A stretch of 64,000 nucleotides of DNA from the NCBI GenBank assembly GCA_900637675.1, contig LR134389.1:496001-560000 (forward strand), given 5' to 3'. This DNA is from Streptococcus equi subsp. equi (GTDB lineage: Bacteria > Bacillota > Bacilli > Lactobacillales > Streptococcaceae). The notes under the pieces are model-generated. The model was not told the DNA's origin. It saw only the letters and a list, made by a program, of their open reading frames with translations, and did not search any database. A program made the position numbers and the translations under genes. Shown here piece after piece: positions 36,585 to 63,553 of this stretch. The stretch's first letter is position 1. The number at the start of each line of letters is the position of its first letter.

Positions 36585-37820
36585 TTAGTCTTTTCTTTTG
36601 CGTCTTGTTAGGAAGCCTAATCCGAGAAGAGAGAGTAAGCCTGTTCCAAGTCCTGTCATTAGACTGCCTGCTTCATTTGTTCTTGGTAGTCCCTTGCCGC
36701 TAGACTGGCTAGTAGTGTTTGATGGCTTGGTTGGTTTTTGAGGCTTAACCTCTGGTTGAGGCGCTGGTTTAGGCTGAGGTTCCGGTTTAGGCTTAGGTTC
36801 TGGCATAGGCTCAGGTTGTGGCTTAGGCTCAGGATCTGGCATAGGCTCAGGATCTGGCTTAGGCACAGGTTGTGGTTTAGGCTCTGGCTTAGGCTCAGGT
36901 TGTGGTTTAGGCTCTGGCTTAGGCTGAGGATCTGGCTTAGGTTCTGGCATAGGCTCAGGTTGTGGCTTAGGCTCTGGCTTAGGCATTGGTTCCGGCTTAG
37001 GCTCTGGTTTAGGCTCGGGCTTTTTAGGAGCTCCTGCCTCACCGCTTTCTCCTTCTGGATATTTAGTTTGACCATTTTCACCTGGTAAATGATGTGGATT
37101 GTTCCCACCTGGTGGTTTAGGTCCTGGATTTGGGTTCGGAAGTTTTGGTGTTAAAGTGGAACCAAGAAGATGTTGATAAAATTTACCTGTACTATAATTA
37201 TATGATGAAGTTACATAAAGATTTAAGCTATAGGTATGTGCTGTAGTTTGGAAGTTTTTTTCAGCAGTTTCAATTAACTTTTTTAATTCTGAATCTTCAT
37301 CTTTGTTTAGATGATAACCATCTTTGAAATGATTTGTAGCGTATCCATCAGTAAAGTGCCAAATAGCTAGCTGTGTTAATCGGCGACTTTGATCTTCACT
37401 TAAATTACCTAATGTCTTATTAGGATAGCCATTTGAAAGAACAGTAACTAATTTTGAAGTTAAGTTATCACTGGGCTTCTGAGATTTAGCTCTTAAAAGG
37501 CTTTCATCTCCTTCTTTCTTTTCATAGATAGGGAGTTTTATACCTAGCTTACTTGGATCTTTAAATTGAGATTCCCAGAGCTCAGGTGAACTATTTAACC
37601 TGTTAAAGCAATAGACACAGTGCTCTTTATCGGTTTTTCTTTCGGGGTGATTTGTTGGTGTTACATATAAAAATACTGGCCAGTCTCCACCGTCTTTTGT
37701 TCCATCATCATAGCCATAGTACTGCTCTGCCAGTACTCTTGCCGCGCCTCCGATAAAGCTGCCCGACATGATGATGCAGACTGTCGAGGCTGCTAGCATC
37801 TTCTTCATTGTTTTTCTCAT
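36585..37820 (-). CDS. Thioester-domain surface adhesin with LPXTN wall-sorting signal
   Basis: 411 residues. A signal peptide (1-31, ending VLA) is followed by a thioester domain. HCVYCFN (Cys68/Cys71) and [13 protein letters not shown] (Gln150) are the Cys and Gln motifs that form an internal thioester able to bond covalently to host amines. A linker rich in Gly and Pro follows, then about 100 residues of PEPKP-type repeats. The sorting signal is LPRTN, a hydrophobic stretch and RRKRKD. LPXTN replaces the usual LPXTG. AAGGAGAG precedes the ATG. The neighbouring gene upstream is a truncated paralogue with a collagen domain. Confidence 0.85.
36755..37020 (-). repeat. PEPKP-coding repeat region
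   Basis: Short degenerate repeats based on GGCTTAGGCTCTGGC on the plus strand encode alternating Pro-Glu-Pro-Lys units. This is the wall-spanning stalk and a likely site of length variation. Confidence 0.85.
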
Positions 37821-38134: not shown

Positions 38135-39373
38135 TTATTGTTTTCTTTTGCGTCTAGTTAAGAAGCCCAGTCCAAGAAGAGAGAGCAAGCCTGTTCCCAA
38201 TACTGTTATCAAGCTGCCTGTGTCGTTTGTTTTTGGTAGTGCTTTGCCGCTAGGTTGGCTAGTAATGGTTGATGGCTTGTTTGGTTGTTGAGGTTTTGTC
38301 TCTGGCTGAGGCTTAACCTCTGGTTGAGGTATCGGCTTAGGTTCTGGCTTGGATTCTGGTTTAGGTGCAGGGTCAGGCATTGGTTGTGGCATTGGATCTG
38401 GGGTAGGAGTGGGATTTTCTCCACGAGGTCCTTGCTCCCCACGTTCACCTTTTTCTCCATCTTTTCCAGGATCACCCTTAGGCCCAGGAATGCCTTGTTG
38501 CCCAGGATCCCCTTTTTCACCTGGTTTACCGTCTTTACCATTACGTCCAGGGTCTCCTTTTTCTCCAGTTTCCCCTTTGTCACCTCTAGGCCCCTGAGGT
38601 CCAGCCGGACCACGATCACCTTGTTTGCCCGGTTTACCATCTTGTCCTTTTTCTCCGGTTTCCCCTTTATCACCTCTAGGACCTTGTGGTCCTTGTTTCC
38701 CAGGTTCGCCCTGAGGCCCACGTTGACCATTTAGGCCAGGCTTGCCGTCTTTCCCATTTTTTATGTATTTTTTCTGTAGTAGTTTATCTTTGTTTTTGTC
38801 ATATTTATCGTTTTTATTCGTATCCTCATAGATGTAAAGATAATAACCATCTTTTCCATTTTCTTCTATATAAATTTTAGTACATTGACAGTTCTCTTTG
38901 TTTTCTGGAGTTTTAACTACTAAGGTAGAACCTAAAAGATTTTGAAATTTTGAATTTCTATCTTTAGATATATAGATATCTAAAGTTCGATTGTTACTAG
39001 TCCCAGCAGTTTTGCCAGCCTGTATTAAATACTTTAATCCTTGAAATTCAAGATCATTTAGACTATAATTTGATTTCAACGTTTCTTCAGAAATACCATC
39101 TGTAAAATACCAAATAGCTAATTGGGTTAATTGTCTTGCCCTGATTTCATCGGGACAGTAGTCTTTACAAAAACTGCTTTTCCCGGTTGGATAACCATTA
39201 CTTAAAACAGCCACTAAAGTAGCTGTAATATCTTTGACATCCGCCCTAAAATTTGGTGAGGCATTATCTCTAAATAAACTATTATTTCCCTCATACTTGT
39301 CATATAGAGGTAGTTGATAAGGTATTTTTTCTGGAGATTCATACATACTTTCCCAAAGTGTACTGACCCCCAA
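38135..39373 (-). pseudogene. Collagen-like thioester adhesin lacking its 5' end
   Basis: The open frame of 412 codons begins with a TTG inside a palindromic IS-derived insertion. Genuine homology starts at LWES, which matches the paralogue from its residue 81. The signal peptide and the thioester Cys are gone; RQLTQLAIWYFTD with the Gln partner remains near residue 84. Then come a region to residue 206, 38 uninterrupted Gly-X-Y triplets (207-320), a proline-rich stalk and LPKTN with a hydrophobic tail and RRKRKQ. It belongs with the Scl-type proteins of S. equi. Without a signal peptide it cannot reach the surface. Confidence 0.88.
38414..38755 (-). repeat. Collagen-like Gly-X-Y repeat region
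   Basis: 38 Gly-X-Y triplets without interruption, including two copies of [16 protein letters not shown]. The DNA is repetitive and a likely recombination site among scl genes. Confidence 0.92.
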
Positions 39374-39473
39374 AAGTTGGACACGACATATTAGTGAAAG
39401 GATTTAGTTCTGTATTGCACAGGGCTAAGTCCTTTCACTAATATGTCGTGTCCAACTTTTGGGGGTCAGTACA
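39359..39473. mobile_element. 115-bp near-perfect palindrome built from an IS3-family end
   Basis: TGTACTGACCCCC opens a 49-base arm (51 with the flank) that reappears inverted with one mismatch. The first 75 or so bases are identical to the left end of the IS3-family element at 62125; the rest is the inverted copy. The palindrome continues two bases past the IS boundary on each side (AG...CT). It has no coding capacity and no target duplication is visible. It lies exactly where the collagen-like adhesin gene is truncated. Confidence 0.88.
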
Positions 39474-39531
39474 CTGCTTTGTCTAAGCATTGGGGTGTAG
39501 ATGAATGAGTGGTGATTAGGCCTGTTGTGAT

Positions 39532-40617
39532 TTATGGTGTGGGCTTAGCGATCAAGGCATGGGCGTGCGTCACTCCGTACTGATCTAGGTTGATGCAGGT
39601 CATCTGATGGTTACTACAATCGTATCGGTAAAGCCTTTTTGGAAAGAGGAAGTAGTAGTTGCTTGAGGTCATCATAAAGTAGGGAGAGCTTGTCTCCTGA
39701 CCGGCTAGCTCCTCAAAGCGAATGGTTCTCTCCTCTCCGGTATCTAGCTGGTAGATGGTCCATGCAAAGTCAGGATTATAATGCTGATCATTTTCGATGA
39801 TAAGCTCATTGGTTTTGGCATGGTGGTAAATGGCTCTAGGACTATTGACATGAAGCATGAGATAGGACTTTTGACCGCTATCTAAGTCATAGGTCATCAC
39901 CTTGTTACCAGGTCTAGGTTCTCCAGTTTCTAAAATGCCATCAGCAGCCTGGGTAATGTAAAGGGTTCGTCCGACGTTGACCATGCGCAGATAGGCAGTG
40001 CTTTCGTCCAGATCTATCCGATCAGTGATAGTAAAGGATTTGTCCATTTTCCATAGCTCAGTTTTGGGCTGCTGACTCTTGATGTCTACAGCGCTGACAA
40101 GCAGGTACAGAGCGTCATCAATCACCAGAAACTGATTGCTGGCATTAATGGTGTCTTGATTTAGAATAGACTTGTGAGCCTGTTTTTTCAAGTGGCGGTC
40201 ATACTTGTAGCAGTCAATACGATCGGCAAAGACAGCTGTTGTGTAAAAGTAATCACCATCAGTTGTAGAGGTGTAGGCGTCATTGCCATCAGCATGAAGG
40301 ACTTTTTCTTCTAGGCTTGCTTGATCAATGTGAGTTAACAGAACCTTGAGGTCATTTCCTTCTCTTGTCTTTGCAAAATACCCTTGCTTGGCCTGCTTAA
40401 AGCTTTCTCGCTCAAATAGCTTGTGCTGTGTTCGAGAGATGGTCTCAACAGGCACCAGACTGTCAGCTTTTTCCATAAAGGTCCTAACATGATCCTTGTC
40501 AAAAATAGCGACTTGATAGGGCTTACTAATCTTGGAGTGGCAAGCAGATAGGGAAAATCCTCCTAATGCTAGTGTCAACATCGTTAGCAATAGCTTATAA
40601 AAATACCTTGTTGTCAT
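39532..40617 (-). CDS. Lipoprotein of unknown function, probably beta-propeller
   Basis: 361 residues. The signal peptide ends in the lipobox LSAC, so the protein is lipid-anchored outside the membrane. The remainder shows repeated short strand patterns with aromatic and Asp residues (STTDGDYFYTTAVFADRIDCYKYD, DDALYLLVSAVD, GRTLYITQAADGIL), like a WD- or YVTN-type propeller. I do not recognise a named family. It is a single gene, adjacent to the palindromic insertion, and its downstream end is intact. Confidence 0.7.
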   Translation of the reverse strand: MTTRYFYKLLLTMLTLALGGFSLSACHSKISKPYQVAIFDKDHVRTFMEKADSLVPVETISRTQHKLFERESFKQAKQGYFAKTREGNDLKVLLTHIDQASLEEKVLHADGNDAYTSTTDGDYFYTTAVFADRIDCYKYDRHLKKQAHKSILNQDTINASNQFLVIDDALYLLVSAVDIKSQQPKTELWKMDKSFTITDRIDLDESTAYLRMVNVGRTLYITQAADGILETGEPRPGNKVMTYDLDSGQKSYLMLHVNSPRAIYHHAKTNELIIENDQHYNPDFAWTIYQLDTGEERTIRFEELAGQETSSPYFMMTSSNYYFLFPKRLYRYDCSNHQMTCINLDQYGVTHAHALIAKPTP

Positions 40618-61456: not shown

Positions 61457-62125
61457 TTATTTTAGTGTTGTATATGGATTTTTAGCGTAATGTTTGAGCT
61501 CTTCAAACTTAACGATTCCCTTCGCCCATTCAATTCCTAGCAGTCTGTTTAACTCTTGCATATCAAGGCTTTCTTGAAGTCTGTAGTAGTTATCTTGTAA
61601 CGGTGTTACCTTGGCACTGTTTAAGGCAGTAATGATACGTTCAGGACTCATCTGCCAATCTATCTGATGTTGAAGGAGGCGTAGATGAACTAAAGCAATG
61701 AAACAGGTTAGAAAGTGAGCTTGAATGTGTTTTTCCGTCCAAACGTAAACAGGACGACTTTCCAGTTCTGTTTTCGTCACACGGAAACAATCTTCAATCT
61801 TGGCTAGCTCTTTATAGGCATTTAACATCTCCTCATCAGTCATTTCTATTTCACTCGTGACAAGCACATTAATCCCATCAAACTGAGCATCAAAATCAGC
61901 CTGTTCTTGATCAATCGTAATCAAAGGAGAGTAGGGTTTAACCTCGCCAGTTTCTTTATCCAAATATTGGAGCTCTAGGTATTTCTTGCCTCCCTTTTTA
62001 CTGGTTCTACGAAAAAGCTCCGCATTGGTTAACTGACTGGCATAGTCTAAAGCACCTTCACGACGAATGCGCTCCCGGTCGGCATATTTTTTAGACCAAG
62101 TGATGAGAACCTTCTCTTGAACCAT
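61457..62125 (-). pseudogene. IS1634-like transposase, C-terminal fragment
   Basis: About 220 residues of a DDE transposase C-terminus. The acidic KIEDCFRVTKTELESRPVYVW segment carries the last catalytic Glu and the K of the YREK-like signature, followed by HIQAHFLTCFIALVHLRLLQ, typical of the IS1634 group. The N-terminal half with the catalytic Asp residues is missing. The frame opens inside the end of the IS3-family element (first 10 codons), which interrupts it. It cannot transpose alone. Confidence 0.82.
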
Positions 62126-62156
62126 GTACTGACCCCCAAAAGTTGGACACGACATA

Positions 62157-62960
62157 TTAGTGAAAGGATTTAGTTCTGTATTGCACAGGGCTAAGTCCTT
62201 TTAGCTTTGCTTTAATGCGTTTGTTGTTGTAGTAAAAAATGTAATCTGTAATAGCTTGTTCAAGCTCATTAAGGGATTGATAAGTTGTCTCAAGGCCGTA
62301 AAACATCTCAGATTTGAGAATACCAAAGAAGGACTCCATCATCCCATTATCTGGACTATTTCCCTTGCGAGACATGGATGGACGAATGCCTTTAGTCTCC
62401 AAAAAGTGATGATAAGACTGATGTTGATATTGCCAGCCTTGATCGCTGTGGAGAATCGTTCCATTGTACGAATCCGCTGGAAAAGCCTTCTCAAGCATGG
62501 TTTGTACTTGCTTCAAGTCAGGCGATCGAGACAGGGTGAAATCAATAATCTCACTGTTATAGCCGTCAAGAACAGGCGATAGATAGAGTTTCCCCTCAGG
62601 TAAGGTAAATTCCGTCACATCGGTATAGCACTTCTCGTAGGGCTTAGAACCTTCAAACTGACGTTTAATCAGATTATCAGCCTTTTTGCCAACCTCACCT
62701 TTGTAAGAAGAATACTTGCGCTTACGACGGATACGAGCTTTTAAGCCCATGACAGTCATCAAACGTTGTACTTTTTTGTGATTGACGATAAAACCACGAT
62801 TTCTTAGTTCCAGATGAATGCGACGATAGCCATAATTGCCATGATGTTCATCATAGATGCCTTGAATGAGCTCCTTTAAGTCCATGTCCTTATCTTCTTG
62901 AGCTAGTTGCTTGACTTGATAATAATAGGTTGACCGCGATAAATCAAGGATTTCAAGCAA
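62157..62960 (-). CDS. IS3-family transposase OrfB (catalytic part)
   Basis: 267 residues from the first ATG. The integrase core has the DDE motif: Asp in YTDVTEF, Asp in LHSDQGWQY and Glu in MMESFFGILKSEM, with the HTH_21 segment GNYGYRRIHLELRNRG before it. It is probably made as an OrfAB fusion: a -1 slip at AAAAAAG (plus strand 63050-63056) joins orfA to this frame with no stop between, giving about 447 residues. Confidence 0.93.
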   Translation of the reverse strand: MLEILDLSRSTYYYQVKQLAQEDKDMDLKELIQGIYDEHHGNYGYRRIHLELRNRGFIVNHKKVQRLMTVMGLKARIRRKRKYSSYKGEVGKKADNLIKRQFEGSKPYEKCYTDVTEFTLPEGKLYLSPVLDGYNSEIIDFTLSRSPDLKQVQTMLEKAFPADSYNGTILHSDQGWQYQHQSYHHFLETKGIRPSMSRKGNSPDNGMMESFFGILKSEMFYGLETTYQSLNELEQAITDYIFYYNNKRIKAKLKGLSPVQYRTKSFH

Positions 62961-62983
62961 AGTTGCTAGAGAAAATTGACCGA

Positions 62984-63499
62984 TTAATTCTTGGATGATT
63001 TCTGTTGCTCTTTGAGCTTTGCTTCGTCCCTCAACCGGTATTCTCTCAGCTTTTTTAGCACAGCATTCTCCGCTCTAAGGTAGTCTAATTCTTTTTGGAG
63101 TCGCTCCAACTCTGTCATTTGTTCTAAAGTCTTCTTTGGTTGACGTCCCATCTTTGGTGGCCTCCCTCTTCTTTTCTCAAGAATAGTATAGCCGTTTTTC
63201 TTGTATTGCGCTATCCACCTTGAAAGCATACTAGAATTTGGTAAAGCATAGTCTAAGGACGTCTGTTTTTGAGATTGACCATCAATCAGAACTTTATCTA
63301 TTATCTCTTGCTTCAGTTCTGGAGAATAATAACTATTCTTACCTTTTTGGACAATGGCTAACCCATACCTGTCAATCAGGCGAATCATGTATTTGAGGTC
63401 AGATTCTGCAATACTAAACTTTTCTGATAAGCATTTAATGGACTTTCCAATGTGCCGTAGCTCATAGATTTGAACCTTGTCTTCATAACTCAATGTCAT
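62984..63499 (-). CDS. IS3-family transposase OrfA (DNA-binding part)
   Basis: 171 residues. Two helix-turn-helix units ([21 protein letters not shown] and [19 protein letters not shown]) are followed by a leucine-zipper region ([21 protein letters not shown]). This is the usual IS150-group OrfA, which binds the terminal repeats and regulates OrfAB. The frameshift heptamer lies at VLKK near residue 150. Confidence 0.92.
63050..63056 (-). promoter_or_regulatory. Programmed -1 frameshift site of the IS3-family element
   Basis: The heptamer A-AAA-AAG stands in the orfA frame (CTA AAA AAG). Slipping back one base gives a frame open through to OrfB. This is the classic IS3-family signal. Confidence 0.88.
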
Positions 63500-63553
63500 A
63501 AAAATAGCCCCCCAATTGTTAGATTTTATGTCTAACTTTTGGGGGGCAGTTCA

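Follow-up and report, generated by a model that had tools for sequence, protein, structure and literature searches.

The 64,000-nucleotide stretch of Streptococcus equi subsp. equi DNA analysed here (the window) contained a beheaded gene for a collagen-like surface protein and, at the break point, a near-perfect palindrome of 57-nt arms around a 5-nt centre (39357..39475, assigned to neither strand). Inside this palindrome lies a 115-bp scar made of two ends of one type of IS3-family insertion sequence (IS), which was probably left by a deletion between two inverted IS copies, similar to the nearly precise excision of Tn10.

The existence of a fold-back palindrome had been claimed by an earlier, sequence-only reading of the window and was confirmed. 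Indeed, its arms (39357-39413 and 39419-39475; 57 nt each) were 95% complementary, and the folding energy of the palindrome as single-stranded DNA amounted to -64.6 kcal/mol, compared with -13.4 ± 2.8 kcal/mol for 200 shuffled sequences (z -18), none of which folded as well (0/200). A scan of the 64-kb window for inverted repeats (exact 12-nt seed, arms of at least 22 nt, distance of at most 150 bp) reported no other one. The palindrome is composed of two pieces. The first piece (39359..39435, + strand) is identical in sequence to the transposase-3' end (IRR end; 62125-62201) of an IS, the identity stopping after 77 bp, and the second piece (39430..39473, - strand) is the exact inverse of the first 44 bp of that IS end (62125-62168). 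Both pieces have the six bases TCCTTT at the inner junction in common (39430..39435, + strand), so that the inverse copy spans between 38 and 44 bp of the IS end, counted from its terminus. The G immediately 5' of TCCTTT comes from the first piece; hence, the junction consists of the G kept in CTAAGTCCTTT, followed by CACTAATATG. The short repeats at this junction originate from a hairpin of the IS, AAAGGATTTAG...CTAAGTCCTTT (39397..39435, + strand). The scar of 115 bp begins with TG, ends with CA and carries two intact IRR ends, and both its outer edges coincide with the TG of the IS terminus. Directly outside the right edge of the palindrome, a small hairpin (GCTT TGTCT AAGC; 39476-39488) was found.

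The IS type that supplied the arms is represented in the window by a complete element of 1429 bp (62125..63553, - strand), which starts with TG and ends with CA. Its OrfB (62157-62960, - strand) matched the NCBIfam model transpos_IS3 with 325 bits (cut-off of 160), and its OrfA (62984-63499, - strand) matched the start of this model with 45 bits, which is under the cut-off. The transposase match and the TG...CA inverted ends place the source of the arms in the IS3 family. The sequence-only reading had considered the first 75 or so bases of the palindrome as the left end of the element at 62125, provided with a small hairpin of its own. The identity held, over 77 bp, but the palindrome's IS end lies downstream of OrfB, which is encoded on the minus strand, and is therefore the right (IRR) end in the usual orientation. 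Similarly, the repeat was present, but the small hairpin turned out to be coding sequence, since OrfB ends with LKGLSPVQYRTKSFH at its C-terminus and the inverted repeat AAAGGATTTAG/CTAAGTCCTTT encodes part of it on the other strand. In an ungapped scan, this OrfB-end inverted repeat, 39-77 bp from the outer IS end, was the third strongest of the IS, surpassed by its terminal repeats and by a hairpin of the opposite end. It was kept at eight of nine related loci in other genomes of the genus, one arm being lost in L088. A 41-nt imperfect hairpin (63507-63547; IS positions 1383-1423) overlaps the upstream IS end.

Copies of the IS were located in the genome by means of exact words. The word GGGCTAAGTCCTTT occurred in 52 exact copies, one within the palindrome and 51 elsewhere, and the arms were 100% identical over query positions 20-96 to many IS copies among the 40 of 95 candidates that were scored. 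According to the part of Holden 2009 (PMC2654543) used here, the IS3-family element ISSeq3 is present in 40 copies in S. equi 4047 versus four in S. zooepidemicus H70. Based on copy number (52 hairpin words) and this report, the element of the window is presumed to be ISSeq3. Some IS copies (L011, L013, L015, L026, L028, L047, and L052-L055) ended with GCGGGTCA instead of GCAGTTCA; the former were 1436-1437 bp long where measured, the latter 1427-1430 bp. The GCGGGTCA-ended copies are possibly the ISSeq3/ISSeq5 chimera that is mentioned in the same part of Holden 2009 (PMC2654543). Further, eight IS copies (L009, L017-L020, L022, L045, and L050) were found at or a few bases from one target, CTTCCCCAGTGG/TTCAAGAGAAGG. 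The same target, read on the opposite strand, forms the left flank of the window copy at 62125, where it sits in an IS1634-family transposase gene (61457-62124); this sharing would reflect either a nested hot spot or the duplication of a composite. The flanks of the window copy (62125-63553) were unlike (AACCA before, AATC after), as was the case for other copies that lack a target repeat, which suggests that IS copies have recombined with each other. At least two further IS copies (L012 and L016) are, as judged by eye, situated in the loop of a terminator-like stem.

The gene that ends at the palindrome (38135..39358, - strand; PF01391 and PF08341) is a remnant of a gene for a collagen-like thioester-domain (TED) surface protein with an LPKTN anchor motif. 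The thioester profile PF08341 was matched at positions 19-99 of 102 only, and the anchor family reached 18.6 bits, below the cut-off of 20, the LPKTN motif being recognized by eye. The remnant has neither a signal peptide nor the Cys half of the TED and is thus not a complete PF08341 surface protein. That the signal peptide and the thioester Cys of the adhesin are missing at the palindrome, as the sequence-only reading had stated, was borne out by the full-length S. zooepidemicus proteins P0004-P0006, which are 97% identical over the searched part and possess both a signal peptide and the Cys of VYCFN. In P0004, 76 residues precede LWES, where the remnant begins, and include the signal peptide and the Cys of VYCFN (signal-peptide residues and thioester Cys assigned by eye). 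P0001, which represents a 78-sequence cluster, shares its internal start Met with the remnant and counts 400 residues versus 403 in the window, which makes it probable, as far as a cluster representative can tell, that other isolates share the truncation. A search for the missing gene head at other sites of the genome failed to find it; the best of seven matches was only 76% identical and lies at a locus where the match of the neighbouring TED gene also passes the break point. A translocation of the head to another genome site was therefore rejected. The neighbouring TED gene (36585..37820, - strand) is a full-length paralogue, and the head of its product matched five further genome loci (352734, 1611542, 1613762, 1655698, and 2019882), besides the neighbouring protein itself and the remnant. 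On the other side of the scar, the right flank (39474..40617, - strand) harbours an intact gene (39532-40617), lipoprotein-like by eye, for which no Pfam family scored above its cut-off. Synteny at the locus of this gene in one relative (L063) was uninformative, the 4 kb examined containing no adhesin. Relatives of the remnant were not found in a collection of genome contigs, from which the genome of the window may have been left out.

The scar is probably explained by two IS copies that were inverted relative to each other, with their transposase-3' (IRR) ends facing outward. One copy would have interrupted the surface-protein gene, and the second would have been located downstream of the lipoprotein-like gene. 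The OrfB-end inverted repeat would have supplied CTAAGTCCTTT in each copy and, on the other strand, CTAAATCCTTT, which in an inverted pair would constitute near-identical direct repeats near the base of a long palindrome. The nascent strand could then have slipped between these repeats during replication, or a cut hairpin could have been rejoined, whereby most of both IS copies and everything between them, the gene head included, would have been deleted, leaving a 115-bp TG...CA scar of two IRR ends. The inner junction indeed falls within a 10-of-11 direct repeat, CTAAGTCCTTT/CTAAATCCTTT, as expected of an inverted pair, so that the scar displays the short direct repeat of nearly precise excision. 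The make-up of the scar, its junction point, the missing target repeat and the loss of the gene head were observed directly, whereas we infer both the earlier IS pair and the slippage step. As the arms are common IS sequence, they cannot show that two different copies contributed. Neighbouring IS copies facing outward are plausible: one such pair, 4.9 kb apart, is present in the genome today, and random placement of 51 copies gave an average of 2.5 outward-facing neighbouring pairs within 10 kb. In the sections of PMC3519483 considered here, direct repeats strongly induce deletion of the intervening sequence in Mycobacterium smegmatis; against a deletion between two inverted copies, the same sections describe perfect deletions from inverted repeats only in cells without SSA, one of the repair pathways.

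The flanks of the scar carry no target repeat (AAAG before, CTGC after) and thus look like those of two separate insertions. To what extent this can be used as evidence follows from the intact IS copies of the genome. From the 52 copies, 46 fitted the end pattern, six variant-end copies being excluded, and 45 could be read at both ends; 25 of these 45 had a target repeat of at least 3 bp, and 20 had none. Since so many intact copies lack a 3-bp repeat as well, its absence at the scar is weak evidence, and fits only weakly with two half-sites of separate insertions. Among the copies without a repeat of their own, L023 and L060 were considered as carriers of the partner target repeat on the opposite flank, having a CAG flank, and were rejected, this flank being too short to mean anything.

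Alternatively, a single IS copy may have been involved, as the sequence-only reading had proposed by invoking hairpin-primed copying, which we consider unlikely. In that case, a 3' end that terminated in CTAAGTCCTTT, either broken or displaced, would have folded on AAAGGATTTAG and copied the IS end inversely, after which the inverse copy would have been joined to the DNA downstream of the lipoprotein-like gene, with loss of the gene head. Such priming gives the observed junction (the kept G, then CACTAATATG), and for human inverted duplications, the part of PMC3907307 used here describes fold-back at microhomologies of 2-8 bp. However, a deletion between two copies predicts the junction equally, and hairpin-primed copying of one IS end could thus not be established. 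The two inverse bases past the IS boundary, to which the sequence-only reading had drawn attention, do match and mildly favour fold-back, the dinucleotide AG preceding only two of the 46 IS ends; yet the third base differs, and a match of this length is expected by chance in about one in 16 cases, making it a weak argument. Moreover, no inverted flank extends beyond these 2 bp: the longest inverse run of the flanks was 5 nt (offsets up to 6), a length reached by 525 of 2000 shuffles, and beyond the two bases no inverse similarity of the flanks above that of the shuffles was found. It is at the outer edges of the scar that the two models diverge. Insertions that really took place have to stop at the IS terminus, whereas a fold-back copy is under no such constraint and requires a second, independent end point to fall by chance within 2 bp of that terminus. 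As both outer edges coincide with this terminus, deletion between a pair of inverted copies is preferred over fold-back.

It is very unlikely that the 115-bp unit arrived by transposition, as a MITE or mini-element bounded by two IRR ends. Its TG start, CA end and two intact IS ends would suit such an element, but it occurs in one copy in the genome instead of multiple dispersed ones, it is not flanked by a target-site duplication, and the missing gene head would require a further deletion. The word CCTTTCACTAATATGTCGTG was found 49 times in the genome, and two opposed copies within 100 bp were encountered only at the palindrome; a search by exact word, by which diverged copies could be missed, revealed no further palindrome in this genome. 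In addition, the joined word CTAAGTCCTTTCACTAATATG was searched with at most two mismatches in 284 genomes of the genus, this one included. Matches were obtained in ten of these genomes, the sole exact match listed being that of the present genome, so that the exact word occurred in none of the 283 others; nor was it matched exactly in viral contigs, which further argues against a MITE. The nine other genomes matched with one or two mismatches, and the one locus read in each of them was an ordinary IS end (9/9). A second palindrome suspected in one of the genomes (G282) was rejected, as the locus was an ordinary IS end with a one-base variant. The genome search that the sequence-only reading had suggested as a check thus returned one palindrome and no target repeats, which does not support a dispersed MITE. 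Finally, an assembly or sequencing artefact in the form of a chimeric fold-back read is extremely improbable: some read types are known to produce fold-back chimeras as artefacts, and a relative, P0011, also starts near the break point in its record, so that an annotated start there is no proof by itself, but P0001, standing for a cluster of 78 sequences known by this representative only, has the same internal Met start at a different length (400 versus 403).

The scar clearly exemplifies IS-linked gene loss of a known kind, with its palindromic nature as the unusual feature, and it fits the published IS-linked decay of S. equi, a pathogen of horses, the record of which gains one probably lost surface protein. 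At base resolution, it suggests that deletions between inverted copies can have their end points determined by a coding inverted repeat of an abundant IS. Gene loss of this type leaves a palindrome and not a complete IS, and could therefore go unnoticed where deletion borders are surveyed for complete IS elements. A more speculative and rather improbable reading is that the scar represents the birth of a mini-element, in that one deletion in an inverted IS pair yielded a TG...CA unit of 115 bp, its two IRR ends being perfect, which the transposase of resident copies might be able to mobilise in trans. If true, this would be a route to palindromic MITEs from IS3-family elements.

Nearly precise excision of Tn10 leaves a short scar of its outer ends. 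As cited in the parts of PMC5991714 (for Foster et al. 1981) and PMC12524634 (for d'Alencon et al.) used here, it takes place between short direct repeats and is aided by the internal inverted repeats of inverted IS copies. The preferred deletion between two inverted IS copies resembles it in being a deletion between short direct repeats of inverted copies that leaves a short outer-end scar. It differs from it in that two copies, belonging to the IS3 family, are inferred, the flanks are without a common target repeat, and the host DNA in between was lost. As the target repeat of one composite element is not kept on both sides, the process works like nearly precise excision without being a strict member of it. 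With IS-derived MITEs, the scar has its short length and two IS ends in common, but it occurs once, lacks a target repeat and has two identical IRR ends. As in the fold-back inverted duplications treated in the consulted portion of PMC3907307, a short inverted repeat and its spacer loop mark the start of the inverse copy, which is large in those duplications but ends at the IS terminus here. As to S. equi itself, the parts of PMC2654543 and PMC4561494 used here place IS3-family copies at the borders of lost genes and invoke recombination between IS elements, and in that of the latter (Harris 2015), deletions and amplifications are ascribed to homologous recombination between IS elements, IS flanking four of 15 deleted loci. 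The present case agrees with this published IS-linked gene loss in having IS3-family sequence at the border of the lost gene, and departs from the cases of recombination between IS elements described there in that the pieces are joined within short repeats of the inverted copies, with a palindrome as the outcome.
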